Source of the DNA: Flavobacteriales bacterium
GTDB taxonomy: Bacteria > Bacteroidota > Bacteroidia > Flavobacteriales_G > Salibacteraceae
Direction: 5' to 3'
DNA: 64,000 nt
Assembly: GCA_013204105.1 (NCBI GenBank)
Contig: JABMOM010000025.1
Coordinates: 1-64,000, forward strand
This document shows, piece after piece, positions 1,180 through 61,642 of this stretch. The notes below the pieces were generated by a model, which saw only the letters and a list, made by a program, of their open reading frames with translations, was not told where the DNA came from and made no database searches. How positions within the stretch are numbered: position 1 is the first letter of the stretch; each line of letters begins with the position of its first letter. A program made the position numbers and the translations under genes.

Positions 1180-2145
1180 ATGGGTATCACAATCATTTTA
1201 GGACTAATTGCAGTATTTGTAATTGCCTTCGCACTAATGGGCTTCAAGATTATTCAGCAAGCCGAGACAATGGTAATTGAACGACTTGGTAAATACAGCC
1301 GAACATTACCAGCGGGAATAAATATTATTTGGCCTGTCATTGACAGACCACGCTCAACAGTTTGGAGAGACGGTGTAGGCGGAAACCTTTCTTATAAGAG
1401 CACAATAGATTTGAGAGAAACCGTTTATGAATTTCCTAAACAAAATGTAATTACAAAGGACAATGTTGCAACCGAAATCAATGCCATTATTTATTTTCAA
1501 ATTACTGACCCAGTCAAAGCAGTTTATGAAATTTCAAATCTTCCTGACGCAATTGAAAAACTTACACAGACAACATTGCGAAATGTAATTGGCGAAATGG
1601 ATTTAGACCAAACTCTCACATCAAGAGATACAATAAACGGAAAACTTCGTAGTGTCTTGGATGAAGCCACTCATAAATGGGGCGTGAAAGTAAGTAGAGT
1701 AGAATTGCAAGACATCAATCCGCCTCAACATATAAGAGAGGCAATGGAAAAACAAATGCAAGCAGAGCGTTCTAAGCGTGCTTCAATTCTCGAATCAGAA
1801 GGAAAGAAAGCATCGCAAGTATTAGAATCAGAAGGATTGAAAACATCAGAAATAAATAAAGCCGATGGAGAAAAACAAGCAATGATATTAAGAGCAGAAG
1901 GAGAAGCACAAGCAAGAATAAGAACAGCACAGGGAGAAGCAGAAGCAATTCTAAAAATTACACAAGCGATTGGTTCTACAAAAAGCGACCCTGTAAATTA
2001 TCTTATAGCAGTCCGTTACATAGACAAATTAGGAGAAATGGTAAGCGGTAAGGACAACAAAGTAATTTATATGCCATACGAAGCGACAGGAATTTTAAGT
2101 TCAATCGGTGGCATCAAGGACTTGCTCACCTCGACAAATAAGTAG
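1180..2145 (+). CDS. SPFH/stomatin-like (QmcA-type) membrane protein
   Basis: The 321-residue protein has an N-terminal membrane helix (GITIILGLIAVFVIAFALM), the SPFH opening 'QQAETMVIERLGKYSRTLPAGINIIWPVID', the 'ITKDNVATEINAIIYFQITDPVKAVYEI' core and a long Ala/Glu-rich coiled coil typical of stomatin-like oligomers. It should form membrane scaffolds with the NfeD protein encoded just upstream. The ATG at 1180 is chosen because it lies four bases after the nfeD stop; an upstream TTG in frame would lie inside nfeD. A C-terminal tail 'GILSSIGGIKDLL' resembles the QmcA C-terminus. It is the last gene of cassette A; attC1 begins 24 bases later. Confidence 0.9.
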   Translation: MGITIILGLIAVFVIAFALMGFKIIQQAETMVIERLGKYSRTLPAGINIIWPVIDRPRSTVWRDGVGGNLSYKSTIDLRETVYEFPKQNVITKDNVATEINAIIYFQITDPVKAVYEISNLPDAIEKLTQTTLRNVIGEMDLDQTLTSRDTINGKLRSVLDEATHKWGVKVSRVELQDINPPQHIREAMEKQMQAERSKRASILESEGKKASQVLESEGLKTSEINKADGEKQAMILRAEGEAQARIRTAQGEAEAILKITQAIGSTKSDPVNYLIAVRYIDKLGEMVSGKDNKVIYMPYEATGILSSIGGIKDLLTSTNK

Positions 2146-2169
2146 CAGACAGACAAAAGAAAAGTATAC

Positions 2170-2301
2170 GCATAACAGCGGGTTTAAGAAATTGGCGGTT
2201 CAGTGGTTAAATAAAGTTTTGTGCTTCGTATCAAGTTCGGTGCTGGCAGACAGTTTTGTGCTCCGAAATCGCCAACTTCTCAAACCCACAAAACGTTGGG
2301 C
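2170..2301 (+). other. integron attC site (attC1), between cassettes A and B
   Basis: The 132-bp site has outer cores GCATAAC (2170-2176) and GTTGGGC (2295-2301, exact GTTRRRY). Long imperfect inner arms GCGGGTTTAAGAAATTGGCG (from 2178) and CGCCAACTTCTCAAACCCAC (ending 2289) can fold into a hairpin with a variable central part. The left core pairs with the right core of attC0 and the right core pairs, with one mismatch, with the left core of attC2, as integron cassette logic requires. Confidence 0.8.
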
Positions 2302-2347
2302 AAAATGTAAAAAAAGATCCCTAGTCGTAGCCTTAACTGAATTTCAT

Positions 2348-2355
2348 TACTTTTG
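2348..2355 (+). promoter_or_regulatory. -7 promoter element of the toxin-antitoxin cassette
   Basis: TACTTTTG matches TAnnTTTG exactly and lies 15 bases before the ATG at 2371. It excludes the in-frame TTG at 2353, which lies inside the element, as the start. Cassette B therefore brings its own promoter. Confidence 0.55.
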
Positions 2356-2370
2356 AGTAAACGACTAAAA

Positions 2371-2601
2371 ATGGACATCCAAGCCTTGAAACTAGAACTT
2401 GTAAAACAGATTCTTGAATCTGAAAGTAAGGAACTTTTGGACAAAGTTTACTATACGTTCAAAAGGGAAGAAAAGGACTTTTGGCTTGAAATGACAGATG
2501 ACCAAAAACAGGAAGTTGAGATTGGTAGACGACAGGTAAAAAACGGTGAAACCGAAGAATGGGAAACCGTACTTGAGCGACTATCAAAGAAGGCTTCATG
2601 A
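2371..2601 (+). CDS. putative antitoxin of a type II toxin-antitoxin pair
   Basis: This is a 76-residue, highly charged, helix-rich protein (MDIQALKLELVKQILESESKEL...). Its C-terminal part 'VEIGRRQVKNGETEEWETVLERL' is the pattern common in small antitoxins paired with ParE/RelE toxins. The stop overlaps the start of the toxin gene by four bases (ATGA). The start at 2371 is supported by the promoter 15 bases upstream. The DNA-binding fold is not clear from the sequence. Integron cassettes often carry such pairs, thought to stabilise the array. Confidence 0.7.
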   Translation: MDIQALKLELVKQILESESKELLDKVYYTFKREEKDFWLEMTDDQKQEVEIGRRQVKNGETEEWETVLERLSKKAS

Positions 2602-2921
2602 AAATCCGCTTTTCCCGACTCGCTGTTTACAAACTTGAGAAGCTTTCTGAGTACCTGATTGAAGAGTGGTCGGAACAATCAAACTTAAAGTTCTTAAAGC
2701 GACTTGACTCTAAAGTCAAAACCATCCAAAAGAACCCTGAGCTTTTTCCTCAAAGCCAGCTTGAAACTGGATTGAGAAAATGTGTCGTCACCAAACAGAC
2801 TTCCCTACTCTATGAAATTCAGACTGATTCCATTTTCATTCTAACTCTCATCGACACAAGACAGGATCAGAAGAAAATGAAAGAAGAAATTAAAAAACAC
2901 TTTGCACAACAACGCCTATAG
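2598..2921 (+). CDS. RelE/ParE-superfamily toxin (cassette gene)
   Basis: The 107-residue basic protein begins MKIRFSRLAVYKLEKLSEYLIEEW and continues with 'FLKRLDSKVKTIQKNPELFPQS' and 'LRKCVVTKQTSLLYEIQTDSIFILTLIDTRQ', the classic ParE/RelE layout of strand, two helices and a beta sheet with the conserved 'Y.I....I.IL.l.D.RQ' end. Whether it targets gyrase or mRNA cannot be told from the sequence. The last codons and the TAG stop (2919-2921) lie inside attC2, so the C-terminus AQQRL is encoded by the recombination site. It is coupled to the upstream antitoxin gene by a four-base overlap. Confidence 0.85.
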   Translation: MKIRFSRLAVYKLEKLSEYLIEEWSEQSNLKFLKRLDSKVKTIQKNPELFPQSQLETGLRKCVVTKQTSLLYEIQTDSIFILTLIDTRQDQKKMKEEIKKHFAQQRL

Positions 2922-3035
2922 CTAATGCTGGCTTGAAACTAAAAAATGATATTTTGTACTTCCAATAACCAGCATGCTAGCGAGGACGGAAACGTTTCCA
3001 AAATGCCGCACTAGCCATAGCCAGGAACGTTGGCA
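2904..3035 (+). other. integron attC site (attC2), between cassettes B and C
   Basis: The 132-bp site has outer cores GCACAAC (2904-2910) and GTTGGCA (3029-3035). Inner arms around CCTATAGCTAATGCTGGC (2914-2931) and GCACTAGCCATAGCCAGG (3008-3025) pair imperfectly. The left core is the reverse complement of the attC1 right core GTTGGGC with one mismatch; the right core is the exact reverse complement of TGCCAAC at 3430, the left core of attC3. The first about 50 bases are nearly identical to attC3, showing array homogenisation. Confidence 0.85.
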
Positions 3036-3046
3036 TTAATTTAAAA

Positions 3047-3451
3047 ATGAAAGACCGCATCCTCATTCAATTCCTATTAGGTACAATCATTCAGCTGATA
3101 CTTTACCTAGGAATCTTGTACTTGGCCAAAGTCATATTAGACTTGACAACAGATGACAAGTACATTTTAATGAGTGACTATGGAATTCAACTGTCAACGA
3201 TAATCTTGACAATGATTATTTCAGTCCAAAATTTAATAACCGCGCTCGTTAACAAAAAATGGTTCACATGGATTGGAATAATAATCGTTTTACTGATTTA
3301 TACAATTGGATGGGGTGAGGACTTTAATTCTTGGCCTGAACGGACAATAATCTTCATAGTAGTCGGATTCACAATTGTCCTAGGAAAAATTCAATTGGAT
3401 GCGACTTTAATGAAAATAAAAAAAACTAATGCCAACAACGCCTATAGCTAA
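3047..3451 (+). CDS. hypothetical four-helix membrane protein (cassette gene)
   Basis: The 134-residue protein shows about four hydrophobic helices (residues about 5-30, 46-65, 73-88 and 96-114) separated by short charged loops, with a lysine-rich tail. I do not recognise a family. The ATG lies only 11 bases after the attC2 core, so there is little room for a private promoter, and expression probably depends on read-through from cassette B. The TAA stop and last codons (NNAYS) are supplied by attC3, as for the toxin gene in cassette B. Confidence 0.7.
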   Translation: MKDRILIQFLLGTIIQLILYLGILYLAKVILDLTTDDKYILMSDYGIQLSTIILTMIISVQNLITALVNKKWFTWIGIIIVLLIYTIGWGEDFNSWPERTIIFIVVGFTIVLGKIQLDATLMKIKKTNANNAYS

Positions 3452-3547
3452 TGCTGGCTTGAAACTAAAAAATGATGTTTTGTACTTTCAATACCATCCT
3501 CCTGGCGAGAACGGAAACGTTTCCAGTATGCCCCAGGAACCTCGGGC
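3430..3547 (+). other. terminal attC site (attC3) with a degenerate right core
   Basis: The left core TGCCAAC (3430-3436) pairs exactly with GTTGGCA at 3029, closing cassette C. The body repeats attC2 almost base for base over the first 50 positions and shares ACGGAAACGTTTCCA in the central part. At the right end the expected GTTGGGC reads CTCGGGC (3541-3547): the GTT of the core is changed to CTC. The site is 118 bp. It marks the right border of the array; no further attC is visible before the genes on its right. Confidence 0.75.
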
Positions 3548-3558
3548 AACATTCTAAA

Positions 3559-3645
3559 ATGAAAACATTCGTCAGGATCTCCCAAGGAGGGTTTCTAGTA
3601 GAATCAATAAACGACATTTGTTTCGAAAGTCAAGTTAAACAATGA
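3559..3645 (+). CDS. short ORF coupled to the acyltransferase gene
   Basis: This 28-codon reading frame (begins MKTFVRISQGGFLVESI) starts 12 bases after the degenerate attC core and its TGA overlaps the acyltransferase ATG by four bases (ATGA). It could be a translational-coupling leader or the remnant of a lost cassette gene. No family is recognisable and the length is small, so it may be chance. Confidence 0.3.
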   Translation: MKTFVRISQGGFLVESINDICFESQVKQ

Positions 3646-4424
3646 ACATCCGAGGCAAATTAGTACGACTCTTCTATTTTATATTAACGAGGAGATATCG
3701 TGTCAAGATCATTGGTTCGAGCATTCTCGAAACACCAGGGGCCATGCTGATATTGCCCAATCATCAATCACACATTGACGCTCAATTGATGGCTGCGATA
3801 GTAGCACAATACTGTGAATTTGTTCCAGTGGTTTCGGAGCGGTTTTTGAAAATCCCAGTCATAAGCAGTTTCTTAAAAAAGTGGAATGCAGTGGCCGTAA
3901 GTGATTTTCGGGGTGGGAATAGGGACCCAAATGTTTTGAAAAACATTTTTTCTCAAGTGATGAACGCGCTGAATATGGGCCGCAGCGTGATTATTTATCC
4001 TTCAGGCACCATCACTTTCACTCCAACAGAAAAGATTCACAATAAGCAAAGTGCATACGCAATCGTATCTGATCTGCCCGAAAACACACGGATAGTTGGT
4101 ACGCGAATCAGCGGACTATGGGGCAGCATGTGGTCTGTGGCTTGGATGGGTGAACGCCCCAGTTTTATAAAGGCTTTATTGAAAGGCGTTTTCTATTTTT
4201 TCGCAAACCTTATCTATTTCTCACCTAAAAGAAACGTGACTTTCGAATTTGTCGACATCACAGATGAGGCAAAGAAAATGGCCCAATCCGACCGTAGGAC
4301 TTTCAACCAATACCTGGAAGCGTTTTACAATGTCAATGGTCCTGAAAAGGCTACGTATATCAAGCACTTATTCTTCTTCCCAAGGTCAAGGAGGAAATAC
4401 CCAAAAAATTTATCCCAAACCTAG
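3642..4424 (+). CDS. PlsC-family lipid acyltransferase
   Basis: The 260-residue protein has the PlsC/LPLAT architecture: the HX4D motif in PNHQSHID (His41, Asp46) and a second block GRSVIIYPSGTITF at about residues 113-126. There the usual FPEG reads YPSG and the following Arg is absent, a variant also known in acyltransferases linked to acyl-CoA ligases. A hydrophobic region (KALLKGVFYFFANLIYFSP) suggests membrane association. Such enzymes move acyl groups from ACP or CoA to a lysophospholipid or another alcohol or amine. It lies convergently next to a fatty acyl ligase and a polyketide synthase, which suggests it may place an unusual acyl chain onto a lipid. It is preceded by the integron array and could have been acquired separately. 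Confidence 0.85.
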   Translation: MNIRGKLVRLFYFILTRRYRVKIIGSSILETPGAMLILPNHQSHIDAQLMAAIVAQYCEFVPVVSERFLKIPVISSFLKKWNAVAVSDFRGGNRDPNVLKNIFSQVMNALNMGRSVIIYPSGTITFTPTEKIHNKQSAYAIVSDLPENTRIVGTRISGLWGSMWSVAWMGERPSFIKALLKGVFYFFANLIYFSPKRNVTFEFVDITDEAKKMAQSDRRTFNQYLEAFYNVNGPEKATYIKHLFFFPRSRRKYPKNLSQT

Positions 4425-4428
4425 AAGC

Positions 4429-6195
4429 TTAGTCCTCTTTGTTGAAAATATCCTTGATTAAGTCCGTGTATTTAGCGGATAAAACTCTTCGTTTCAGCTT
4501 CAACGTGGGTGAAAGCTCATCAGATTCAATGGTCCACTCATCCGCAACAACTCTGAACCGCTTGATTTGTTCGTCTGCGCCAATTCCTTTGTTCTGTTCC
4601 TTCACGATTTCTTGAAATAGGCGATCCACTTCTTTGTCCTTTATCATATTGGCTCGGTTGCTGGCGTCGATTTTACGCGAATTACACCAATCCGTTAATG
4701 CTTCAAAATTTGGAGATATCAAGGCACTGGTGAATTTTTCGCCTTCTCCAATGACCATTAACTGATCGATGTACAGCGATTCCTTGAACAGGTTTTCGAT
4801 GACTTGTGGCGAAACGTATTTCCCATTCGAAAGCTTAAATAATTCCTTTTTTCGATCAGTAATACGCAAAAATTTACCGTCATCCAACACACCGATATCG
4901 CCTGTGTGGAACCAGCCTTCGCTATCCATCACCTCCGAAGTGGCCCTTTCGTCTTTAAAATAGCCCAGCATAACATTTGGCCCTTTGCATAGGATTTCTC
5001 CATCGGGGGCGATTTTCACTTCAACGCCTTCAATCACCGATCCCACCGTTCCCAAGCGCAAATCGGGCAGTTGTTGTCGATTGATGGTGATGATAGGCGC
5101 TGTTTCTGTGAGGCCGTACATGTTTAACAATTTGATGCCGGCAGCCCAAAACACACGCTCGAGACGAGGTTGCAAAGCTGCACCGCCCACTCCAATCGAT
5201 ACCACGTTTCCGCCCATTGCTTCTCTCCACTTGCTGAAGATAAGTTTGTTCGCAAGCTTAAGTTGAATGGCATACCACCACCCATTGGAACCATCAATTT
5301 TATACCTCAATCCAAGGTCTAACGCCCAAAAAAAGAGGGTCTTTTTGATTCCCGAAAGTTTGCGACCCTTGTCCACAATTTTGTCATAAACCTTCTCAAG
5401 AATGCGCGGAACTGCACCAAAACCGTGTGGTTGAACTTCTTTCAGATCGCGCGCGATGGTGGCTGTGCTTTCAGCGTAGTATATGCTGCACCCGGAGTAT
5501 TGCGTTTGATAACAACCCATGCGCTCCCCAACATGACAAATTGGGAGAATGCTCAAGTAGCGTTGATCGGATTTCAGTTGAAACACGGAAGCGGCTGCAA
5601 TTGCTGTGGTCATCAAGTTTTGGTGAGAGAGAAGGATGCCCTTTGAATTCCCTGTTGTTCCCGAGGTGTAAATCAAGGTGACGGGATCGGTGGCTAATGT
5701 TTGCTTTTTGGTTTCTTCAATTATTTGACTGAACTCACTGGCTTTCTCTTTGCCTAAATCCCGCACAGCCGTCCAGTTTGGTGCAGAGTCCACTTGATCA
5801 AACGTGAAGATCAAATCAGGAGCAATTGGCTTAATCAGATCGTACAATTTTTTATCGGAAACAAACACCGCTTTGACTTGAGCATGCTCGAAGATGCCCT
5901 TATACCCCTCCTGAGTCAGCGTTGTGAAAAGGGGAACATGAATGAGTCCGGCTTGGGCCAATCCCATATCTGCAAAATTCCATTCAGGTCGATTATTGCT
6001 AATGGTGGCGACAGCATCTCCTTTTTTCAAGGACATTGCCAGTAAACCATAACTCATCAAATTCGAATTTTCGATGTAGTCCTTAGTGCTAAACTTAACC
6101 CATTGTCTGTTTTGCTTAGCGGCAAAGACGTCTGGTTTGTTTGGTAACTCTGTCCCGTATTTTTCAAGAAGATCAAAAGTTCGTGTTACTTGCAT
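4429..6195 (-). CDS. long-chain fatty acyl-CoA/AMP ligase
   Basis: The 588-residue ANL-superfamily enzyme shows the P-loop-like motif LIYTSGTTGNSKG (about residue 170), the 'GLTETAP' A5-like motif, 'GWFHTGDIG' and 'DRKKELFKLSNGKYVSPQVIE', which together are typical of long-chain acyl-CoA synthetases (FadD15/ACSL type). It activates a fatty acid with ATP and passes it to CoA or possibly an ACP. It lies 55 bases after the PPTase gene on the same strand and has its own promoter element (6231-6238). The clustering with PKS and PPTase suggests it activates either the starter or the released methyl-branched acid; a plain housekeeping role remains possible. It converges with the acyltransferase gene four bases away. 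Confidence 0.88.
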   Translation of the reverse strand: MQVTRTFDLLEKYGTELPNKPDVFAAKQNRQWVKFSTKDYIENSNLMSYGLLAMSLKKGDAVATISNNRPEWNFADMGLAQAGLIHVPLFTTLTQEGYKGIFEHAQVKAVFVSDKKLYDLIKPIAPDLIFTFDQVDSAPNWTAVRDLGKEKASEFSQIIEETKKQTLATDPVTLIYTSGTTGNSKGILLSHQNLMTTAIAAASVFQLKSDQRYLSILPICHVGERMGCYQTQYSGCSIYYAESTATIARDLKEVQPHGFGAVPRILEKVYDKIVDKGRKLSGIKKTLFFWALDLGLRYKIDGSNGWWYAIQLKLANKLIFSKWREAMGGNVVSIGVGGAALQPRLERVFWAAGIKLLNMYGLTETAPIITINRQQLPDLRLGTVGSVIEGVEVKIAPDGEILCKGPNVMLGYFKDERATSEVMDSEGWFHTGDIGVLDDGKFLRITDRKKELFKLSNGKYVSPQVIENLFKESLYIDQLMVIGEGEKFTSALISPNFEALTDWCNSRKIDASNRANMIKDKEVDRLFQEIVKEQNKGIGADEQIKRFRVVADEWTIESDELSPTLKLKRRVLSAKYTDLIKDIFNKED

Positions 6196-6230
6196 CGGTC
6201 TGTGATTAAGGTTCTATGGGCTGCGCCTTC

Positions 6231-6238
6231 CAAATGTA
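6231..6238 (-). promoter_or_regulatory. -7 promoter element for the acyl ligase gene
   Basis: On the minus strand the sequence reads TACATTTG, an exact TAnnTTTG match, 35 bases upstream of the ATG at 6195 and inside the 55-base gap after the PPTase gene. The ligase can therefore be expressed independently of the PKS. Confidence 0.5.
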
Positions 6239-6250
6239 ATTCGTTCATTT

Positions 6251-6991
6251 TCAAAACAAAATTGAGACGTCCATTTGTTCAACCGTCAGGTCGGGACGCA
6301 TTGTTGTCAGCGTTCCTACGTAATTTTTCGCGGGTGAAAATTCTTCAAAATGCCAGTCTTCCTGCTCAAAGACTCCTTTAACGGAAAGCAATCTAATTTT
6401 TGATTCTTCAATTGAAAACTCGAGGCAATCGGGAGGTAGTCGCATTCCCTCGCCAATGGCCTTTAAATAGGATTCCTTTACCGTCCAAAAGCGGAAAAAA
6501 CGCTGGCTTTTTTCCGCTGGTTTTGCGTTGATGAATTTGATTTCGCTGCTTGTGAAGTTCTTTGTGATCATTTGTTCCAGATCAGGCAAAGGCCTCTGAT
6601 GTTCTATGTCAATGCCAATTTCTCCTTCACGCGAAAAGCCATATACAGCGAGCCCTCCAGAATTTGAAATGTTGAAACACAACTTCGGATCGTCCAAGGA
6701 AAAGGGTTTTCCTTTTGAATGCCTGCCGATTTTTAAATCGCGTGGCGTAATGTTGAGATAGGCACCTAAAAGAATGCGAAGGATACCTTGGCTGATGATG
6801 TAATTCTGGCGAACGTCCTCAAACTTGAAAAACGGAACCCGCTTTAATTCCATTTCCGACAGCGCGTCTCGACAACGTTCCAACAAACCATCCGTAGGGT
6901 TGGTGCTCACATTCCAAACATGAATGTGTCCAGCAGATAAAAAGGGAAAGTCTTCCAAACTATAGCTGACTTTCCCTTTTGTTGTATTCAT
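6251..6991 (-). CDS. Sfp-type 4'-phosphopantetheinyl transferase
   Basis: The 246-residue enzyme carries the Sfp signature: 'GIDIEHQRP' with the Mg-binding Asp and Glu near residue 125, and 'FFRFWTVKESYLKAIGEGM' (W..KES..KA) near residue 170. It transfers phosphopantetheine from CoA to the serine of carrier domains. The start lies six bases after the PKS stop, so the two are translated from one transcript, and the substrate is almost certainly the PKS carrier domain (Ser2495). The length is typical for Sfp/Gsp enzymes, not for the shorter AcpS. Confidence 0.92.
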   Translation of the reverse strand: MNTTKGKVSYSLEDFPFLSAGHIHVWNVSTNPTDGLLERCRDALSEMELKRVPFFKFEDVRQNYIISQGILRILLGAYLNITPRDLKIGRHSKGKPFSLDDPKLCFNISNSGGLAVYGFSREGEIGIDIEHQRPLPDLEQMITKNFTSSEIKFINAKPAEKSQRFFRFWTVKESYLKAIGEGMRLPPDCLEFSIEESKIRLLSVKGVFEQEDWHFEEFSPAKNYVGTLTTMRPDLTVEQMDVSILF

Positions 6992-6997
6992 TTTAGA

Positions 6998-9900
6998 TTA
7001 AACTGAGACCGTTTCGCTCAGTTCTTCTGAAACGATATCAAGTAATTCCTCCTTATTATCTCGGCAGAACAGGTGCCCTCCCGATACAACTTTAAACCTA
7101 AATTCAGAATTGGTGTGCTGATCCCAACCTCTTACTTGATCTTCTGTGAAGACCGAATCATTCGCTCCAGCAAATGCGGTTAACGGGCAATTCAATGGCT
7201 CATCTTTGATATACTTGTATCGTTTACCTAAAAGGATATCAGCCCTTAATGCCGGAAGCATTTCGTTGAACACAGCATCGTTGTCGATCACAGAAGCTGG
7301 AATTTCCAGCGATCGTAAATGACCTTTGATGTTTGGGATGTTTTTGTCCTTGTATACTTCGTCCTCATCAATTGCTTCAAGGAATTTGAAGGGACTCACA
7401 AGGTGGGGAGCTCTCCATCCACCCACCATAAATTTGACAGGTTGCACGTCCAATTCTCTGTTGAGGTATCGAGACAATTCCAGTGCTACACCAGCGCCAG
7501 AACTGTGACTATAGAAAGCACACGGCACCGTTAATAATGGCTCCATTATTTCGGCCATTTTAGCAACCAATTCGGCAACATCATCATAGGCCCTTTCATC
7601 TCCTCTTTCTTCTCTACCCGGGAATTGAATAGCACACACTTCGATATCATCTGGAAGGTATTCGTGCCATGTGTTAAAGATTGAGGCACCACCCGCGAAA
7701 TAGGGCAAGCAGTAAAGCCGCAACCTTGGATTATCCACTTTTTTCACTCGAATAATCCATTTGTCCAATTCGCTTTTCACACCTCCATCAGCGCTTTCAA
7801 GGCCGCCGCCGCCGTTTAGTTCATCGAGGATTTGTTCAGTCATCTCCTCCATGGATGGTCCGCGCATGATTTTCATCATCGAGTAATCCACTCCTACGTT
7901 GGCTTGCACCCAGTTTCGAATCTGGTTTGCCATAAGCGAGTCTAGTCCATACTTTGTTACAGGCTCGGAAACGTCCAATTTATCGGCGGTGGTTCCTAGA
8001 ACTCGTCCAAAAGTGTCTTTCAAGTGGCCCAAGAAAATATCGATTTGCTCGGCGGGTTTCGATTCAAGCAAATTTGCCTTTAATGCCCCATCACCGCTTC
8101 CACCTGAAGAGTTGCCGCTCAATTCTTTCTCATTTACGAGGTGAGCAAATCGGCTTGAAACCGCACTGTGTGGGAAGAATTCACCGATCATTTCCCAGTC
8201 AGAATCTGTAGCAACCCGTTGAACTGGGTTCGTGAGCAACACGTTCTCTAGAATGCCCGTGGCTTGTTGCAGAGAGAATGAATTCCATCCTTGCTTGTAA
8301 AGAAGCTCGTCTACATTACCACCTACTTTGCCGCTTCGCGCGACAAAACCTACATCTCCAATCACACCCCAATTAACCGTTGTTGCAGGAAGCCCTTGAG
8401 CTCTTCTCCAATGGGAGAAATTATCTAAGAAACTGTTCGCCCCAACGTAACTTACTTGACCAGGGTTTCCATAGATGGCCGAGATGGAAGAATAAGAAAG
8501 GAAGTGATCTAAAGCCATGTCTTTGGTGGCTTCGTGTAAAATCCAGCATCCGACTGCCTTTGGAACAAACACACTCATGTAACGCTTGTGCGTTATTTCT
8601 GGAATGCTTCCGTCATCTAGCACCATCGCGGCATGTTGGATTCCTTTGAGAGCAGGCATGGTGTCTTTAATTTCTTTAAAGACCCTATCCATATCTTGCT
8701 GATTGTCAACACTGCCTTTCGCCAACATGATCGTGACGCCTTTGTCTCTCATTCGTTGAACTGTTGCAGCTTCTTCTTCCGTTTTTGTGCCGCTTCTGCT
8801 CAATAGAACCAAGTTTTTGCAATTCTTGGTTGTCATCCATTCTGCAACGCCAAGTCCAAAACCTGAAGCCCCGCCCGTAATCATGTAGGAAGCGTTAGCA
8901 TCAAACTTCATTTCTTCTGGTGGCGCAACATTTACGGTGCCTTCCATGGAAACGATGATTTTTCCAATATGTCGTGCCCCACCCATGAACTGGAATGCAT
9001 CGGCTAATTTTCCAATTGGGAAGACAGTGACGGGATGTGGTTTAAACCCTTGCTCGACAAAATAGTCGATGGACTCCTGGAAGAGGCGCCCACCAAATTT
9101 GTCTTTTTGCTTGAACAATCTATCCACGTCAACACCGAAGTAGGTGAGGTTGTTACCAAATGGTTGTAAACCGAGCTTACTGTTTCGATAGATATCGGTC
9201 TTGCCAATTTCTATAAAGCGTCCGTAGGCAGAGAGGCATCTTACGCTTTTGAAAATGGCTTCTCCAGAAAGTGAGTTTAATACAACATCAACTCCTTTGC
9301 CATTGGTTTTTTCCATCAACTCATCCGCAAACGCCAGCGTTCGAGAACTCATGATGTTCTCAGGTTTAACACCTAAACCAATGATGTAGTCGCGCTTGTC
9401 TTGCGTACTTACCGTGGCAAAAACTTCAGCGCCAATGGCATTAGCGATGTTAATCGCTGCAATTCCCACACCCCCAGCCGCAGCGTGAATCAAGACTCGC
9501 TCTCCTTTTTCTAGGCGACAATGGTGTATAAGTGAGAAGTATGCTGTTGTGTAAACCACAGGCAGACTAGCAGCCTCATTCCAATCGATGTTTTTTGGTT
9601 TCTTGACGCAGTGCACGGCCAGTGGATAGGCAAACCCGCTCAAGCAAGAGGGGGCAGTTGCCATCACCTCGTCACCAACTTTTACGTTGGTCACGTCTGC
9701 ACCGACAGCACTGATAATTCCTGCGCATTCCAAACCGAATGTTCTTCCAAACAAACCTCCTTCAACCGCATCATTGGATAACAGTCCCATGGCGATCATG
9801 ATGTCGCGGAAATTCAGGGCCGAGGCTTTGACGGTGATCTCTACCTCATTTGCCGAAGGCGCTCTTCGTTCCGTTTGTCGCAATACGACATTGTCTAAGA

Positions 9901-12900
9901 CACCATATTCTGAGATCGTTGCTGTGTAGGCCGATCCTTCCGCTGGAACTGATTTCATCGCCCGTTGTGCTATGTTGTCCAAGGAGATTCTCTCTAGCTT
10001 GTTTACATAGCGTTTTTTACCTCTAAAGGCGAGTTCATCTACACGATCTCCCGCGAAAATTTCGTCTACAAAAACGTCTATTTCACTTTCCTGAACAGGA
10101 TGGCTGAAATCAACCAAGGTGGTCACATAGTTCGGGAATTCATTCACGATGCAACGACTGACCCCTCGTAATCCTTCTTGTGAAAGGTTCAGTAGTTCAG
10201 GCGATCCAGCCACTGTTTGTGAACCACTCAATAGAACCCAAACGGATGGGTTTTTCTTGAATTGTGTTTCGTTCAGCTTTTTCAGGATGTTCATCATGGT
10301 GAGGGTGCCGTGGCTTTCACCTTCAATGATTGAACTAACCGATAGTTCGCTGTTTTCAATGAGGTCTAATCCCCAGGCGTATATGATTCCTTCGAAGCTG
10401 CCTTTTTCTTTAATCGCATCAATAACCTTATTTACATCGTCTTGCGAGTTCGGATCAATCGCGAATTGACTGTCGCCAAGTTTCTTGAACTCATTGCCAA
10501 GCACAACGGTGGTGCATGACTTATTTAGTCCGGACATCCTCTCAATGGTTTTTTCCGAAACTCCTTTATCGTCCGCAAATACGAGCCAATTTCCAGCTGC
10601 ATTTTTTGCTTCAGAATTCACTTCAAGTTCCTCAAATGACAGCTTCTTTGATCGAGCCATGATGACCGTTTGGCAAGAGGTATCATTTTTAGGGAAGTCA
10701 CTAAAACTGGCCACATCTGTGTAGCCATTGCTGGTTAATACTTCTTTCCATTTTTCTGGAGCCATCGTGGCGTGTTCCGTCCGGATGTCGGTGTCTTCAT
10801 ACAACCACCAGCCTTCCGTCATACCAAATATGAAGTCGAGATAAACAGGAGAGTTAGTTACCTCAAGCATCATTAAGACACCTTCGGATGCAAGCAATTT
10901 CTGCGCATTTCCGAGGGAATCACTCAGATTACGAGTGGCATGAATAACATCCGATGCAATGATCAAATCGAATGAATTTAGATCAAACCCTTGCTCGGCC
11001 GGATCATTTTCAATGTCCAATATTTTGTATCGAACAAAGGGATAGTTCGCAAAGCGCTGTTGTGCCTTGAGCATGAACATGTGGCTCAAATCCGTGAACA
11101 CATATTCGGTTCTGTCGGCAGGAAGCATTGGTAAAATGGCTTGCGTCATTCCACCCGTACCAGCTCCAATTTCGAGTACACGGATGTTTTTGTCCTCAGG
11201 AAGATTCTTGATCAATTCAGCTACAGAACGACCCGCGATATCATTGTACTTTTTGAAGGCAAAACCCTCCACATAATACTGCACAATAGCATCCCATTTA
11301 TCTTCAGGGAAGATGAGTTGAATTGGATCCACTGTGCCTTGCAATACGCCTTGAATCTCTGGGCCACAACGTCCGAGTAAGGTGGACTCATGATGAAATT
11401 GAGGGAATTGCGCGCTAAGATTATCCATCCACGCACCTACATCTTTAAAGTCAGGGGTCTTGACGATCTCAAATTTTCCATTGTCACCACTTACAAATCC
11501 AGCGACTCGTAAGAGTTTGAACATGTGATGGAAAAGCCTGTGGTGGTCTTTAATCACACCCATTTTGAGGATTTGCTCCTCAACATCGATTTTAGCTCCG
11601 GCTTCGAAAGACATACCCATGTCCTTGAGTGAGCGGCAGATATAACCCATTGTGAGTTTGTACTGCTCCGGCTCATATTGCTGGTAGTATTCGTTTTGTT
11701 CTGGACGACCTTGAACTTCCGAAATGGTCTTTTGAACCTCGGTAGCAATCTCTGTTGGTTTGGGTAAATATTCACCTGGATTTCGCATACGATCTTGATC
11801 CGCACGAGACTTCATGTTCCAGTTGTACTCATAGAACCATTTATCTTGCTCGCCACCTTGTTCTCCGCGAGAACCCTTCAGGTATTGAGAATGGAATCCG
11901 TGAAATTCTGCGACCATCGATCCATCTTCGTTGAAAATCCAAAGTTCGCCAAGCGCGTACTCGTCTGTCCATTCTCTCAATCGCCCGTGAACGTAGAGTT
12001 TGTACGAGTTCACATCGTTATGCCACTTGATACGGTCAATGTGACGCGGCACATACACCCCCATTTTTTTGTTAACGTCTTCACGCTCATTGAAAATGCC
12101 GAACACTGTTTGAAAACAGCTGTCCAAGACACCCGGGTGAATATTGAATTGGAAAAATTCTGAGCGGATGCTTTCGTGTACTTCGATTTCACTTAAAGAT
12201 TCCCAATTTCCATCACTTCGCCATAGGTTTTTGATCGCCCGGAAAGTTGGGCCCAAATACAATCCGCTTTCAAGCAGTTCATCATGCATTGGCTTAACGG
12301 GCACTGGAATAGTGATTCGTTTTTTGACATCTTCCAAATCCACTGGAATCGACTCAAATTCATCACCAATGTGGTTGATCTTACCATTAGAACACATGAT
12401 CCATTGCGCGTCTTTTTTACGCGATTTGGAGTAGATAAAATAGTCTCCCCCGTCATGCGAAATGTCTATTTGGATGTGGGGTGGCTCACCAGAATCTGGT
12501 AAGAACAAGGCATTGTCAAAATTCACATCTTGTATGAATTCGAATTTTTCCCCAAATGAAGCTTTTGCAGCACCAATAACAAGATCAACGTGACCGGCTC
12601 CTGGAAACACAATGGGGCCCTGCACTTTGTGATCCTCTATGTAGGTATAGGTTCGTTTATCAAGCGAAACATCCCAAAGAATGTTCGTGCTTTCTCTCGC
12701 CGATGACACCTTTCTTTTTAGGTGGGGGTGCCCATATTCAATTGCGCCTAAACGTGATTTTTTACCCCCTTCGCTTTCAATCCAGTAAGACTCTTTTTGC
12801 CATGGATATCTTGGCAATTTTACCCAACCGTTGTCATTTCCGTAAAATGCTTTCCAGTCTACTTTCACGCCCCAAGCATGCAATTGAGCTAGCGTAGAAA

Positions 12901-15421
12901 GGAAGGTTCTTTTCTCTTCGTCTTTTCTTCTCAGCGAATGAGCAACACAGCCCTTTACCTTTTTGTCCGAAAGCAAGCCTTCAATTCCAATGGCGTGAAT
13001 CGGGTGAGGTCCAAGTTCAAGAAATGTGTCAAATCCATCCGAGATTTGTGCGCTTATTGCATCCGTGAAATAAACTGGTTCGCGTACGTTTCTGAACCAA
13101 TACAACGGCGTAAGGTCTTCGCCTTTTACAACGCCACCTTCAACCGTTGAGTAGAAAGGGATTGTTGTCGCTTTTGTTTTAAATTCTCCAAGCGAGGCTA
13201 GAAGTTCCTCTTTTAGTGGTTCCATGTGGTGGCTGTGAAAAGGAACGTTCACGGCTAACAAGCGATGGAAAATATCTTTTGCGTTCAATTCTGCCGCGAT
13301 CGCTTCGATCACATCGGTGTCTCCAGAAAGCGCGACCATTTCGGGTCCATTCACTGCACCAATGGATACTTTATCCTCTTTTCCTGCAATGAGTTTTTCG
13401 GCTGCTTCGCGCGAAACACCAACCGCCAACATTCGTCCTTTGTCAGTGGCTTTAAATTGCACTCGACTTCTATGAAAAATGAGTAGAACAGCCTGCTCCA
13501 ACGTCAAGGCGCCAGAAACATATCCAGCCGCAACCTCTCCAATACTGTGCCCAACAACGGCTTTCGGATGAACTCCAGCCGCTTTCCACATTTCATAAAG
13601 GGCGATTTGAAGAGAGAAAATTGCAGGTTGCGCAATGTTCGTGTCGCCGATACGTGAGTTTTCTTCGCTTTTGGTAAGTTCTTCTACAAGTGACCAATCA
13701 GCATGCTTTGAAAGCATTCCATCTAGTTTGGTGATCCATTTTCGGAAAATGGGTTCATTTTCATACAATTGACGGCCCATTCCCCACCATTGTGGTCCTT
13801 GTCCAGAGAATATAAATACCACTTTATCCTTCTCTTCATTCACTCGACCTTCTGCAATTTCAGTAATGGATTCACCATCCAAAAACAACTGCAAGTTTTT
13901 TACAAGCTCTTCTTTGGTTTCTGCCACAACAGCCAATCTGTGCGCGTGATGCGTTCTTCTGGTTGCGGTATACGCACTAATATCGCTTAGACTGTACTTG
14001 TTGTTTTTGTCTTTTAGAAAATCAATGTATCGCCCTGTCAATTGGTGGAGCGCATCTCCATTGGTCGCGGAAATGGTTGTCACCTGCAAGCCCCCTTTGT
14101 CATTTGCGGGTCGCTCGGCTGTTTTAGCATCCTCTAAAACCACGTGCACGTTGGACCCTCCAAAACCAAACGAATTGACACCCCCGTAACGAGGTTTACC
14201 ATTTGCTGGCCAAGGGTGAGCGTCCGTTGGCACTTTCAACTTTAATTCGTCAAATGCGATGTTCGGATTGCCTTTCTTAAAGTGAATGTTGGGGGCAATG
14301 GTTTCATTGTACATTGATAAAGCCAACTTCGATAAACCGGCAACGCCTGAAGCGGGCTCTAAGTGACCAATGTTGGATTTGATGGAACCCATGTAGCAAA
14401 AGTCTTCTCGATCTTTCCCAATTACAGTTCCAATGGAATTACTCTCAATCGGATCTCCAACAAATGTTCCTGTGCCGTGTGCTTCAACATAACCGACATC
14501 ATGTGGGTTTACTCCTGCATCTATATATGCTTGCTTTAATAGTGCTTGTTGCGCCAGTGGATTTGGAACCGAAATTCCTTTGGTGGCCCCATCTTGATTA
14601 ACAGCAGTTCCGCGAATAACTGCGTAAATTTTATCTCCATCCGCTTCAGCTTGAGACAGTTTTTTCAGAATGACCAAACCAGCTCCTTCGCTCCGGATAT
14701 ATCCGTTTCCACGCTCGTCAAAAGAAAAGCAGGTTCCGTCCTTTGAAAGAAATCCGCCTTTACTGAAACCCATTTGTGGTTCAGGTTTTAAAATGGAGTT
14801 TACTCCTCCGGCGAACGCTGCGTCAGCGTCACCTTCCCAAATTGCACGACAAGCAGAATGAACCGCATTCAGTGATGAAGAACATGCTGTATCGATCGCA
14901 AACGATGGCGATATAAGGTTGTAAGAATAGGAGATTCGGTTTGCTGCAATGCATAGTGCAGAGCCAACGTTTGTGTGTGAGCCGATGTTAACTCGTTCTT
15001 CGTAGGCGTTTTGCAAATCTCCATAATCATGGGCCGAAATCCCCACAAAAACAGCTGTTCGAGAGCCATTTAAATCATTTAAACTTAATCCAGCATCTTC
15101 AACCGCTTCGTAGGAAACCTCCAAAAGCATGCGTTGTTGTGGATCCATTCGCTGCGCCTCTAAGGGTGAAATGCCAAAGAAACCAGCATCAAATTTGTCA
15201 ACGTTTTCGATGAATCCACCTCGATTCACGCTAATTTTTCCAGCTCGTCTCCACTCGGGAGCATACATGCCTTCGTTATCCCACCGATCTGCAGGAATAG
15301 GACCTAGGGCATCCTTTTTGTCCATTATTAATTTCCAAAACTCTTCTGGGGTATCTGCATTGCCAGGATATCTACATCCCATTCCAATGATGGCTATCGG
15401 TTCTCTTTTAAGGCTTTCCAT
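6998..15421 (-). CDS. single-module highly reducing type I polyketide synthase with C-methyltransferase and thioesterase
   Basis: The 2807 residues read, in order: KS (about 5-430; Cys180 in DTACSSS, His315 in EAHGTGT, His353 in NIGHLEP); AT (about 533-830; Ser626 in GHSIGE, FHS at 728-730, a malonyl-type pattern); DH (about 895-1180; His931 with HxxxGxxxxP, Asp1100 in HPGVLDSCFQ); C-methyltransferase (about 1240-1590; SAM loop LEIGAGTGG at 1416-1424); a structural psi-KR region (about 1610-1810); ER (about 1838-2160; HAAAGGVG at 1979-1986); KR (about 2178-2400; TGGASGFG, Ser2311 or Ser2312, Tyr2325, Asn2329); ACP (Ser2495 in GLDSLMA); and a type II-like thioesterase (about 2565-2807; Ser2640 in SHSSG, Asp2755, His2783). 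Every catalytic residue looks intact, so it should work iteratively and release an alpha-methylated, fully or variably reduced acyl chain. The domain order resembles fungal highly reducing synthases with a TE added. The PPTase and acyl ligase follow it. Confidence 0.95.
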   Translation of the reverse strand: MESLKREPIAIIGMGCRYPGNADTPEEFWKLIMDKKDALGPIPADRWDNEGMYAPEWRRAGKISVNRGGFIENVDKFDAGFFGISPLEAQRMDPQQRMLLEVSYEAVEDAGLSLNDLNGSRTAVFVGISAHDYGDLQNAYEERVNIGSHTNVGSALCIAANRISYSYNLISPSFAIDTACSSSLNAVHSACRAIWEGDADAAFAGGVNSILKPEPQMGFSKGGFLSKDGTCFSFDERGNGYIRSEGAGLVILKKLSQAEADGDKIYAVIRGTAVNQDGATKGISVPNPLAQQALLKQAYIDAGVNPHDVGYVEAHGTGTFVGDPIESNSIGTVIGKDREDFCYMGSIKSNIGHLEPASGVAGLSKLALSMYNETIAPNIHFKKGNPNIAFDELKLKVPTDAHPWPANGKPRYGGVNSFGFGGSNVHVVLEDAKTAERPANDKGGLQVTTISATNGDALHQLTGRYIDFLKDKNNKYSLSDISAYTATRRTHHAHRLAVVAETKEELVKNLQLFLDGESITEIAEGRVNEEKDKVVFIFSGQGPQWWGMGRQLYENEPIFRKWITKLDGMLSKHADWSLVEELTKSEENSRIGDTNIAQPAIFSLQIALYEMWKAAGVHPKAVVGHSIGEVAAGYVSGALTLEQAVLLIFHRSRVQFKATDKGRMLAVGVSREAAEKLIAGKEDKVSIGAVNGPEMVALSGDTDVIEAIAAELNAKDIFHRLLAVNVPFHSHHMEPLKEELLASLGEFKTKATTIPFYSTVEGGVVKGEDLTPLYWFRNVREPVYFTDAISAQISDGFDTFLELGPHPIHAIGIEGLLSDKKVKGCVAHSLRRKDEEKRTFLSTLAQLHAWGVKVDWKAFYGNDNGWVKLPRYPWQKESYWIESEGGKKSRLGAIEYGHPHLKRKVSSARESTNILWDVSLDKRTYTYIEDHKVQGPIVFPGAGHVDLVIGAAKASFGEKFEFIQDVNFDNALFLPDSGEPPHIQIDISHDGGDYFIYSKSRKKDAQWIMCSNGKINHIGDEFESIPVDLEDVKKRITIPVPVKPMHDELLESGLYLGPTFRAIKNLWRSDGNWESLSEIEVHESIRSEFFQFNIHPGVLDSCFQTVFGIFNEREDVNKKMGVYVPRHIDRIKWHNDVNSYKLYVHGRLREWTDEYALGELWIFNEDGSMVAEFHGFHSQYLKGSRGEQGGEQDKWFYEYNWNMKSRADQDRMRNPGEYLPKPTEIATEVQKTISEVQGRPEQNEYYQQYEPEQYKLTMGYICRSLKDMGMSFEAGAKIDVEEQILKMGVIKDHHRLFHHMFKLLRVAGFVSGDNGKFEIVKTPDFKDVGAWMDNLSAQFPQFHHESTLLGRCGPEIQGVLQGTVDPIQLIFPEDKWDAIVQYYVEGFAFKKYNDIAGRSVAELIKNLPEDKNIRVLEIGAGTGGMTQAILPMLPADRTEYVFTDLSHMFMLKAQQRFANYPFVRYKILDIENDPAEQGFDLNSFDLIIASDVIHATRNLSDSLGNAQKLLASEGVLMMLEVTNSPVYLDFIFGMTEGWWLYEDTDIRTEHATMAPEKWKEVLTSNGYTDVASFSDFPKNDTSCQTVIMARSKKLSFEELEVNSEAKNAAGNWLVFADDKGVSEKTIERMSGLNKSCTTVVLGNEFKKLGDSQFAIDPNSQDDVNKVIDAIKEKGSFEGIIYAWGLDLIENSELSVSSIIEGESHGTLTMMNILKKLNETQFKKNPSVWVLLSGSQTVAGSPELLNLSQEGLRGVSRCIVNEFPNYVTTLVDFSHPVQESEIDVFVDEIFAGDRVDELAFRGKKRYVNKLERISLDNIAQRAMKSVPAEGSAYTATISEYGVLDNVVLRQTERRAPSANEVEITVKASALNFRDIMIAMGLLSNDAVEGGLFGRTFGLECAGIISAVGADVTNVKVGDEVMATAPSCLSGFAYPLAVHCVKKPKNIDWNEAASLPVVYTTAYFSLIHHCRLEKGERVLIHAAAGGVGIAAINIANAIGAEVFATVSTQDKRDYIIGLGVKPENIMSSRTLAFADELMEKTNGKGVDVVLNSLSGEAIFKSVRCLSAYGRFIEIGKTDIYRNSKLGLQPFGNNLTYFGVDVDRLFKQKDKFGGRLFQESIDYFVEQGFKPHPVTVFPIGKLADAFQFMGGARHIGKIIVSMEGTVNVAPPEEMKFDANASYMITGGASGFGLGVAEWMTTKNCKNLVLLSRSGTKTEEEAATVQRMRDKGVTIMLAKGSVDNQQDMDRVFKEIKDTMPALKGIQHAAMVLDDGSIPEITHKRYMSVFVPKAVGCWILHEATKDMALDHFLSYSSISAIYGNPGQVSYVGANSFLDNFSHWRRAQGLPATTVNWGVIGDVGFVARSGKVGGNVDELLYKQGWNSFSLQQATGILENVLLTNPVQRVATDSDWEMIGEFFPHSAVSSRFAHLVNEKELSGNSSGGSGDGALKANLLESKPAEQIDIFLGHLKDTFGRVLGTTADKLDVSEPVTKYGLDSLMANQIRNWVQANVGVDYSMMKIMRGPSMEEMTEQILDELNGGGGLESADGGVKSELDKWIIRVKKVDNPRLRLYCLPYFAGGASIFNTWHEYLPDDIEVCAIQFPGREERGDERAYDDVAELVAKMAEIMEPLLTVPCAFYSHSSGAGVALELSRYLNRELDVQPVKFMVGGWRAPHLVSPFKFLEAIDEDEVYKDKNIPNIKGHLRSLEIPASVIDNDAVFNEMLPALRADILLGKRYKYIKDEPLNCPLTAFAGANDSVFTEDQVRGWDQHTNSEFRFKVVSGGHLFCRDNKEELLDIVSEELSETVSV

Positions 15422-16015
15422 GTAATTTTCTTAAAGTCTGTTTCGCTCGTATTCTCATCCTCCTTTGGTCGGTTGACGACCCCTATCTCATACGCTTCAT
15501 CTCTCCAAACTAGTTTTCAATTTATTCGGTAAAAGCAGTCATATTAAATTGAAGCTGGTTTGATATTAATCATTCTGAATCAAACCAAGTGCGACGCCAC
15601 AATAAAATGAACTTGAACCCATTTTTGGCAAAATAAAAACAAAAGAGGTCATGAAGTATAAAGAGTAGGATTTGATTGGAAAAAGTATTCCGAATCAGCA
15701 TGGGCGAAGCCAATCGCAATCATCGCCTTAGTTTCATCCCAACCTTGCATTTAATTCCTTGCGCTAGGTGCAATTCGTCGAGTCGACTCAAACCCGTCCT
15801 TTGCCAATGCGTGATCACTGCACTAAGCGACACTACCCATGCTTGCAACCTCTAGAGCTTTCCCGACTCCTTCAATCCACTAAAAATGGACGGCGAACAT
15901 GGGCTATAGCATAATCCGCGTTCTCTCCGATTTCCTACTTTTAAACCCAATTGGGTCTCGAATCTTTGTGCTACACGTGCCATAGACCTGACCGTTGTAA
16001 TCAACCAAACTACTT
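15422..16015. other. 594-bp intergenic region upstream of the PKS
   Basis: No gene was found here. The stretch separates the divergent PKS (minus) and DoxX-like (plus) genes and must hold the PKS promoter, but no exact TAnnTTTG element was found on the minus strand close to the PKS start. The closest match for the plus-strand gene is TACTTTTA around 15945. The length is unusual for this compact region and leaves room for regulator binding. Confidence 0.5.
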
Positions 16016-20838: not shown

Positions 20839-21633
20839 TCAATGTGATCCCGAGCGATACATGGCTATTTCGAGCTCCGTTAGGATACGGCTAAGCGCCT
20901 CGTTGGCGGCATCTCCCCTGGTATTGGAATCGATGATCCACCAAGGTGCGTGATCCGTGTGGGTGCGTTCGAGCATGCGTTCTTTATACTCAGTATACTC
21001 GTCCCAGTGCTTTTGGGCCTTGAAATCGAGACTGGTCACCGTCCATTTTTTGAGCGGGTGACGCTTGAGGAGATCGAAGCGGCGGGCTTGCTCCTCTTTG
21101 GTAATGGAAAAATACAGTTTGATGAGGTGAACACCTGACTCTACCAGCATGCGCTCAAACTCATTCACCTGTCCCATGAATTGTTGGTATTCCTGCTCAG
21201 TGCAAAAGTCATTTACCGGTTCAAGGACCGCTCGGTTATACCAACTTCGATCAAAGAATGCCAGTTCTCCAGGTTTTGGCAACACGCTCACATAGCGCTG
21301 AAAATACCATTGACGGACTTCATCTTCCGTAGGTTTCGGCAATGCCACCGTGCGGAAATGTCTCGGGTTGATATGGGCCGATATCCTTCGGATGATCCCA
21401 CTCTTCCCTGCACCATCCCTTCCTTCGCACACCACGATCACTTGGCGCTTTTGTTGAATCACCCAGTCGTGCACCAAGATCAACCGTTCTTGAAGGATGC
21501 GCAGCTCTACTTCGGCCTTGGACTTTTCCAATGCGCGATCCACATCGATCTCATCCTCCCTAATCAGGTATTTCAAGCCGACCTTGGAGTTCAATAATTC
21601 AAGTTCTTGCGGTGTCAATCGTTCCATACGCAT
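20839..21633 (-). CDS. PPK2-family polyphosphate kinase (second of a tandem pair)
   Basis: This 264-residue PPK2 enzyme has a Walker A loop EGRDGAGKSG near residues 70-79, 'NPRHFRTVALPKPTEDE', 'WYFQRYV' and the Walker B/lid motif FFDRSWYNRA. PPK2 enzymes transfer phosphate between polyphosphate and nucleotides. The ATG at 21633 overlaps the TGA of the upstream paralogue by one base (TGATG), so the two are coupled; the in-frame TTG at 21636 is not needed. It shares every motif with the gene before it and probably arose by tandem duplication. Whether it prefers NDP or NMP cannot be decided. Confidence 0.9.
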   Translation of the reverse strand: MRMERLTPQELELLNSKVGLKYLIREDEIDVDRALEKSKAEVELRILQERLILVHDWVIQQKRQVIVVCEGRDGAGKSGIIRRISAHINPRHFRTVALPKPTEDEVRQWYFQRYVSVLPKPGELAFFDRSWYNRAVLEPVNDFCTEQEYQQFMGQVNEFERMLVESGVHLIKLYFSITKEEQARRFDLLKRHPLKKWTVTSLDFKAQKHWDEYTEYKERMLERTHTDHAPWWIIDSNTRGDAANEALSRILTELEIAMYRSGSH

Positions 21634-22478
21634 CAAGTATCGATCTGTTGGATCTTGCGGAAATAGCGCGAGACGACATTCGGGTCGGGCAGGGTGCGCA
21701 CATTGTCTTCGCTCTTTTCGGGATAATCAAATTGAGACAGCACATATCGGATGCTCTCCAAGCGCGCATTGCGTTTGTCGTTGGTTCGCACGATCACCCA
21801 AGGACCGTAGGGGGTGTGGGTTCTGCTAAACATCAGCTCCTTATACTTGGTGTACGTATCCCACAAGGCCTGCCCTTGCTGATCCACCGGACTGTATTTC
21901 CATTCCTTGAGGGGATTTCCCAGTCGCGAAGCGAAGCGCTTCACCTGCTCCTCCTTGGAGATAGAAAACCAGAACTTGATCACCTTCACTCCATCCTCGT
22001 AGAGCATGTGTTCAAATTCAGGAACCTGCACCATGAATTGATCGTATTGCTGTTTATCGCAAAAACCCATGACCGGTTCCACTACCGCCCGGTTGTACCA
22101 GCTGCGGTCAAAGAAGACCATCTCCCCCCGATTGGGAAGTTCTTTGATGTAGCGCCTGAAATACCACTGTCCAGCCTCCAATTGTGTAGGCTTACTCAAG
22201 GCCACGATCCGAGAGAGGCGTGGATTCAAGTGTTCCATGAATCGCTTAATCGCACCGCCTTTTCCAGCGGCATCTCTCCCCTCAAACACGACCGCAACGC
22301 GCAGCCCCTCTTCGAAGATCCACTTCTGCAGTTTTACCAGTTCCTCTTGGAGCGAGCTCAACTCATCCTCGTACGATTGACGCTGAACCGCCTTTTGCAC
22401 ATTGGCTCCGCTCTTCACCGCCAAGTCAAGGAATTCCTTCCGCGTTTTTACGCTCCGTAGGTCTTCTTCATTGAACAT
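21633..22478 (-). CDS. PPK2-family polyphosphate kinase (first of a tandem pair)
   Basis: This is a PPK2 of about 281 residues with Walker A 'EGRDAAGKGG', 'KRFMEHLNPRLSRIVALSKPT', 'WYFRRYI' and 'VFFDRSWYNRAVVEPVMGFC'. A longer frame begins at 22571, but the ATG at 22478 gives the usual family length and a family-like N-terminus (MFNEEDLRSV). The region just upstream (TACTTTGG) is close to a -7 element. Together with the following gene it gives the cell two PPK2 enzymes in one operon, possibly with different nucleotide preference or for a hetero-complex. Confidence 0.88.
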   Translation of the reverse strand: MFNEEDLRSVKTRKEFLDLAVKSGANVQKAVQRQSYEDELSSLQEELVKLQKWIFEEGLRVAVVFEGRDAAGKGGAIKRFMEHLNPRLSRIVALSKPTQLEAGQWYFRRYIKELPNRGEMVFFDRSWYNRAVVEPVMGFCDKQQYDQFMVQVPEFEHMLYEDGVKVIKFWFSISKEEQVKRFASRLGNPLKEWKYSPVDQQGQALWDTYTKYKELMFSRTHTPYGPWVIVRTNDKRNARLESIRYVLSQFDYPEKSEDNVRTLPDPNVVSRYFRKIQQIDT

Positions 22479-61632: not shown

Positions 61633-61642
61633 GTATCTCTCT

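Follow-up and report, generated by a model that had tools for sequence, protein, structure and literature searches.

A synthase–PPTase–ligase cassette with alternative acyltransferases as a candidate polyketide-lipid pathway in Bacteroidota

Mycobacteria are the best-known source of polyketide lipids with multiple methyl branches, and these lipids shape the mycobacterial envelope. The mycocerosic acid synthase (Mas) system consists of a polyketide synthase (PKS), a FadD ligase and an acyltransferase, and is activated by a 4'-phosphopantetheinyl transferase (PPTase) (PMC5064953). Here we analyze a four-gene locus, referred to below as the cassette, that encodes a single large PKS (the synthase), a PPTase, an acyl-CoA ligase and a PlsC-like acyltransferase. 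It lies in the first 64,000 nucleotides (the window) of contig C22 (JABMOM010000025.1) of a Flavobacteriales bacterium of the Salibacteraceae (assembly GCA_013204105.1; 3.1 Mb, 96% complete). Comparative genomic evidence supports the linkage of synthase, PPTase, ligase and acyltransferase in one pathway. We consider it probable (about 0.6) that the cassette produces an acyl chain of polyketide origin, probably methyl-branched and mostly saturated, which it then attaches to a lipid. As far as we could find, a polyketide-lipid pathway of this kind has not been described in Bacteroidota, and literature searches returned no description of the cassette in the collection covered.

The four genes are arranged as follows.
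3642..4424, plus strand: PlsC-like gene, 260 aa, predicted O-acyltransferase (PF01553)
4429..6195, minus strand: ligase gene, 588 aa, cassette-specific long-chain acyl-CoA ligase, FadD11-like
6251..6991, minus strand: PPTase gene, 246 aa, Sfp/HetI-type 4'-phosphopantetheinyl transferase
6998..15421, minus strand: synthase gene, 2807 aa, ATG start, one frame; single-module highly reducing PKS, putatively iterative

The open reading frames (ORFs) lie exactly as the initial annotation had placed them. Six bases separate the synthase stop codon from the PPTase start, the ligase gene follows the PPTase gene after 55 bp, and the PlsC-like gene is convergent with the ligase gene, their ends being 4 bases apart. 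Both Pfam and NCBIfam assign the PPTase to the two-half Sfp/HetI type, and the best NCBIfam model for the ligase is CoA ligase FadD11. About 600 bp 5' of the synthase gene (15422-16015) carry no gene call.

Further members were sought by scanning named genomes with the DH-cMT region and two 7-residue patterns, a procedure that misses more distant homologs. The scan yielded 17 loci, one of them in the congener G012, and thus 16 further genomes; all the cassette loci found belong to metagenome-assembled genomes (MAGs). They represent Crocinitomicaceae, Salinivirgaceae, Bacteroidales, Sphingobacteriaceae, genomes labelled as Chitinophaga and unplaced Bacteroidota. Synthase identity to the window ranges from 65 to 83% (15 relatives compared over most of the length). 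Genomes of the genus (13), the family (35) and the order (42) were also searched. Of these, only the window genome and G012 code for the synthase, and no other orthologue was found in a sample of 395 Bacteroidota genomes, where the remaining matches are 31–37% identical.

The strongest evidence for a common pathway comes from the ligase. The cassette-type ligase is present in 16 of the 18 synthase-bearing genomes, and the other two hold only synthase fragments on contigs of 3–4 kb. Cassette-type ligases are 54–75% identical to the window ligase and form a single clade. Housekeeping ligases fall on the other side of the separating branch; they co-occur with the cassette type in most cassette genomes and stand alone in PKS-less congeners. 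No cassette-level ligase was detected in 394 other Bacteroidota genomes (E <= 1e-190, with the best three candidates per genome scored). Because the cassette-level ligase tracks the synthase in this way, the two are likely to serve one pathway. The initial annotation had named one pattern as contrary to its reading, namely ligase and acyltransferase kept together in relatives without the PKS; neither a cassette-type ligase nor the PlsC-like gene was found in 11 PKS-less congeners.

In most loci the synthase is followed directly by the PPTase and then by the ligase, and almost every genome with an assembled region has a PPTase of the Sfp/HetI family together with one or the other of these two genes, synthase or ligase. 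The ligase is unlinked from the synthase in five of the 16 genomes. It is then grouped with the PPTase and a PlsC-like gene (G448), with the PPTase and an LpxL-type gene (G449, G450) or with a tandem GNAT gene (G445, G456); where the locus is split, the PPTase is found beside the ligase. Overall, nearly all carriers of the synthase also have the PPTase and a dedicated ligase, sometimes at a second locus.

According to Pfam, the synthase combines KS-AT-DH-cMT-ψKR-ER-KR-ACP-TE in a single polypeptide, where ψKR denotes the structural (pseudo) KR half and TE the thioesterase.
14129..15403, minus strand: KS, aa 7-431; Cys in DTACSSS, His in EAHGTG and IGHLEPASG
12863..13819, minus strand: AT, aa 535-853; GHSIG, and VPFH at the HAFH/YASH specificity position
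11876..12730, minus strand: DH, aa 898-1182; HxxxGxxxxP and DxxxQ intact
10712..11740, minus strand: C-methyltransferase (cMT) with HTH_51 lead domain, aa 1228-1570; S-adenosylmethionine (SAM) motif plus His/Glu intact
10076..10594, minus strand: structural (pseudo) KR half, aa 1610-1782; PF21394, 34 bits
8951..9853, minus strand: ER, aa 1857-2157; motifs intact
8360..8893, minus strand: KR, aa 2177-2354; LDD motif, S-Y-N intact
7835..8023, minus strand: ACP, aa 2467-2529; GLDSLM; the only ACP
7025..7720, minus strand: C-terminal TE, aa 2568-2799; Ser/His intact

The core catalytic residues are invariant across 16 orthologues. Pfam and the motif check agree with the initial annotation, which had listed every domain of a highly reducing iterative synthase, together with C-methylation and a TE, with catalytic residues intact. 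As a single stand-alone module with a TE, the synthase probably works iteratively. The VPFH and xTxxAQ motifs of the AT are, going by established AT motifs, presumably malonyl-type. By established PKS enzymology, such an AT paired with a cMT points to SAM-derived alpha-methyl branches, and the presence of KR, DH and ER makes full reduction possible.

The initial annotation had also named as contrary a KS that groups with a known pathway of different product. In a coarse comparison that bears on this point, of the solved structures and product-named models those of the Mas/Pks2 type are nearest to the synthase. Mas is the closest solved structure (1003 bits), and LovB is also among the solved relatives. 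The two best NCBIfam models, NF045894 (generic type I PKS, 1237 bits) and NF041183 (Pks2, 1225 bits against a cut-off of 2400), both score below their cut-offs. Like Mas/FadD28/PapA5 and Pks2-type systems, the cassette brings together one iterative reducing type I PKS, a need for a PPTase, a FadD-family ligase and an acyltransferase. The differences are as follows. The domain architecture is shared save for the added cMT and TE (Mas has no TE domain). Branches are expected here from the cMT and the malonyl-type AT, whereas Mas and Pks2 use methylmalonyl-CoA and have no cMT. The acyltransferase is PlsC-like (PF01553) or a GNAT, in contrast to Pap proteins of the condensation-domain type. The synthase is TE-terminated and the PPTase resides inside the cassette. 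Finally, the ligase is probably CoA-type (best model FadD11), whereas the partner of Mas is a fatty-acyl-AMP ligase that loads the starter. In function the cassette appears similar to the Mas/FadD/Pap design and yet is not a member of it, none of the three defining features tested having been found.

Other known systems share parts of the cassette. Fungal highly reducing PKSs have the order KS-AT-DH-cMT-ψKR-ER-KR-ACP, and the synthase resembles this LovB type in having the same order in one polypeptide, intact motifs and a cMT with the HTH_51 lead domain, classified by Pfam as fungal-type. Unlike LovB-type enzymes, it is bacterial, carries its own TE and is tied to a ligase and lipid acyltransferases. 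As in Aas, a PlsC-like domain and an AMP ligase are encoded together, and the acyltransferase half of Aas-type proteins is the best NCBIfam match of the PlsC-like protein. In contrast to Aas, there are two separate genes, the ligase is FadD11-like and PEG of motif III is changed to P(S/A)G; with the Aas model NF006386, whose cut-off is 1221 bits, the scores are 58 and 116. The claim that the locus is not a polyunsaturated fatty acid synthase also held, since TIGR02813 (PfaA) scores 372 bits against a cut-off of 1010 and there is one ACP instead of tandem ACPs. Genes for sulfonolipid (cysteate-based long-chain base) or flexirubin (type II aryl polyene) synthesis are absent from the listed neighbours, though no search aimed at them was made. 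Outside the clade, the closest synthases found are plasmid-encoded PKSs of Persicobacteraceae (Persicobacter, Aureibacter), with about 50% identity in KS-AT, the architecture KS-AT-DH-ψKR-ER-KR-ACP-TE and, in Aureibacter, a PPTase annotated next door. Unlike the cassette synthase they have no cMT (where scanned, L035) and no linked cassette-type ligase or acyltransferase. The Persicobacter plasmid has an ORF of similar size at the place of the Aureibacter PPTase. Both are large plasmids of cultured strains (L035, L036) and thus a possible handle for product chemistry.

The acyltransferase is the variable component. The PlsC-like gene is present in 7 of the 18 synthase-bearing genomes versus none of the 11 PKS-less congeners; it occupies several positions relative to the core and is next to the ligase in genomes that have the synthase elsewhere. 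A cassette-type tandem GNAT was found in 6 or 7 genomes, split loci included, either directly 3' of the ligase or one gene further wherever the neighbourhood was read. Only G445 has both, and the slot of G447, G453 and G458 is not countable because of truncated or short contigs. At least two types of acyltransferase, the PlsC-like enzyme being one, alternate in the slot, and the choice between them switches at least two times on the synthase tree or three times on the PheT tree. That unrelated enzymes, PlsC-like or tandem GNAT, fill the slot suggests one conserved acyl chain destined for different acceptors. The predicted structure of the tandem GNAT (mean pLDDT 65, low confidence) shows only the tandem GNAT fold. 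At the ligase locus of G456 (L063), a CrtI/CrtD-like FAD oxidoreductase (12994-14454) directly follows the tandem GNAT. In G449 and G450 an LpxL-type gene separates PPTase and ligase; it looked like a third acyltransferase type but was set aside, being the only LpxL-type match in those genomes.

PlsC-like orthologues retain NHxSHxD (one reads NHVSHID), while P(S/A)G(T/Q) replaces the PEGT of PlsC motif III; a conventional PlsC-like neighbour (L065) reads FPEGTI. In PlsC, motif III binds the glycerol phosphate part of the acceptor, so that the altered motif makes a non-standard acceptor plausible for the cassette enzymes.

In the pathway that we propose, the PPTase would arm the ACP of the synthase, which would then use malonyl-CoA iteratively to extend an acyl starter of short or medium length. 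The cMT would transfer a methyl group from SAM to the chain in every round or only in some, and KR, DH and ER would reduce the chain. The C-terminal TE would free the chain as an acid, to be turned into acyl-CoA by the dedicated ligase. The PlsC-like protein would transfer it to a lipid, probably by O-acylation of a lyso-lipid or another non-standard acceptor; in other genomes the tandem-GNAT enzyme would act at this step, probably by N-acylation. Here the chain identity, the TE-then-ligase order, the acceptor and the cellular role are what we infer. The branched polyketide lipid pathway of the initial annotation has gained comparative evidence for the functional linkage of its four genes, whereas its methyl-branched, lipid-bound product is as conjectural as before. 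Its final steps need revision, as the PlsC-like protein is not the sole acyltransferase and the ligase could load a starter instead of activating the product.

Several points weigh against the proposed pathway. With motif III altered, the PlsC family is no guide to the acceptor, and most genomes either lack the PlsC-like gene or carry it at an unlinked site, so that the final step seems to vary. The LpxL-type gene of G449 and G450 may be their housekeeping lipid A enzyme and is not counted. The Mas ligase acts at the beginning, on the starter, and does not activate the product (PMC5064953), so that the cassette ligase may act at either step. It could supply the synthase with an activated fatty acid of the ordinary kind as primer, the role of FadD28 in the Mas system, with a few methylated extensions to follow and the acyltransferase or TE unloading a product that would still be a branched lipid. 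The Mas system works in this manner (PMC5064953), and Mas is the nearest solved relative of the synthase. Nevertheless, we regard such starter loading, the main rival, as unlikely here, because the ligase resembles acyl-CoA ligases (FadD11) and not an acyl-AMP ligase handing its product to KS or ACP, and the synthase has a TE with invariant Ser/His.

Free-acid release by the TE would be compatible with a secreted polyketide as well, such as a signal, antibiotic or surfactant, with the acid modified or amidated and the acyltransferase serving as a tailoring or self-protection enzyme. The GNAT in some genomes is compatible with this, as is the patchy spread with inter-order exchange of the synthase, typical of secondary metabolism. 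On the other hand, no exporter, regulator or additional tailoring enzyme recurs beside the cassette in the loci read, and strong conservation (65–97% identity among loci) is combined with host-like GC content at third codon positions (GC3), which makes a secreted product very unlikely in our view. A little less likely still is that the PlsC-like gene is an unrelated neighbour of a pathway made up of synthase, PPTase and ligase only. Although it is on the opposite strand and in most loci not near the synthase, among the genomes tested it occurs only in synthase-bearing ones (7/18 versus 0/11), and its position varies relative to the core while adjoining the ligase in split loci.

Whichever acceptor the proposed lipid pathway uses, its synthase and the partner genes differ in history. 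With the congener set aside, PheT of the window is 42–54% identical to that of the other cassette genomes over full-length matches, compared with 65–83% for the synthase. The window genome and G012 are sisters by PheT (support 100/100) and by ligase (100/99), whereas the G012 synthase is 89–91% identical to Crocinitomicaceae synthases and the window synthase is nearest to that of L018. A clade of window and G012 is rejected for the synthase (p-AU 3e-5), and a clade of G012 and Crocinitomicaceae is rejected for PheT (p-AU 6e-66) and ligase (7e-4), with the caveat that these values assume clades named beforehand, which was not strictly so. PPTase and PlsC identities track the ligase. From the conflicting trees and identities we conclude that a resident pathway exchanged its synthase gene: the synthase has passed between orders, whereas its partners (ligase, PPTase and PlsC) share the history of the host. 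The last 250 residues of the window synthase are closer to G012 than to L018 and most of the protein shows the reverse, which suggests recombination inside the gene. Since GC3 of the cassette genes is broadly host-like and most pairs are saturated at synonymous sites (making the nonsynonymous to synonymous rate ratio, dN/dS, impossible to estimate there), these events are not recent.

For the window and G012, misbinning was rejected as the source of the conflict. PheT lies about 35 kb from the window synthase on the same contig and groups with the congener. On the cassette contig of G012, the S46 peptidase is 63–84% identical to congeners versus 42–47% in Crocinitomix genomes and G457. This check covered the window and G012, leaving out L018 and the remaining MAG loci. 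In the congener G004 the gene order beside the S46 peptidase differs, and the empty-site comparison was uninformative.

Genes flanking the cassette are unrelated between loci, close sister loci excepted. In L033, an RND/MMPL-family exporter-like protein (2123-4558) is encoded 5' of the PlsC-like gene and synthase and is not kept at other loci. In L014 (G012 contig C172), a DUF3419 ORF, apparently split into more than one frame, lies directly 5' of the synthase (1872-2912). This broken ORF (BtaA-like, betaine-lipid family) was not found at other loci and was rejected as a pathway part. Elsewhere in the window, two overlapping, mutually related genes (20839-22571, minus strand) look like tandem polyphosphate kinase 2 paralogues, and an aldehyde dehydrogenase is apparently fused to a MaoC-like hydratase in a PaaZ-like manner (45873-47927). 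A run resembling glycan phosphorylase (GH94-like), GH30-like and GH16-like enzymes (58171-63999, minus strand) is a possible locus for beta-glucan use.

In its broadest form our proposal is more tentative, and we rate it somewhat below even odds. The cassette may define an undescribed class of Bacteroidota lipids with SAM-methylated polyketide chains, in which a constant synthase–PPTase–ligase core is combined with interchangeable acyltransferases that set the head group or linkage (ester for PlsC-like, amide for tandem GNAT), and in which the synthase has been swapped between orders. If true, it would be a compact, self-sufficient counterpart, in Gram-negative Bacteroidota, of the mycobacterial systems and a new way of making branched lipids for the membrane or envelope, with malonyl-CoA and SAM as the sources. 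Its four genes, PPTase included, would be easy to rebuild in E. coli, and its product would provide a lipid signature, so far unassigned, for environmental Bacteroidota. Acyltransferase swapping against a constant acyl-making core would then offer a testable case of how lipid diversity evolves.

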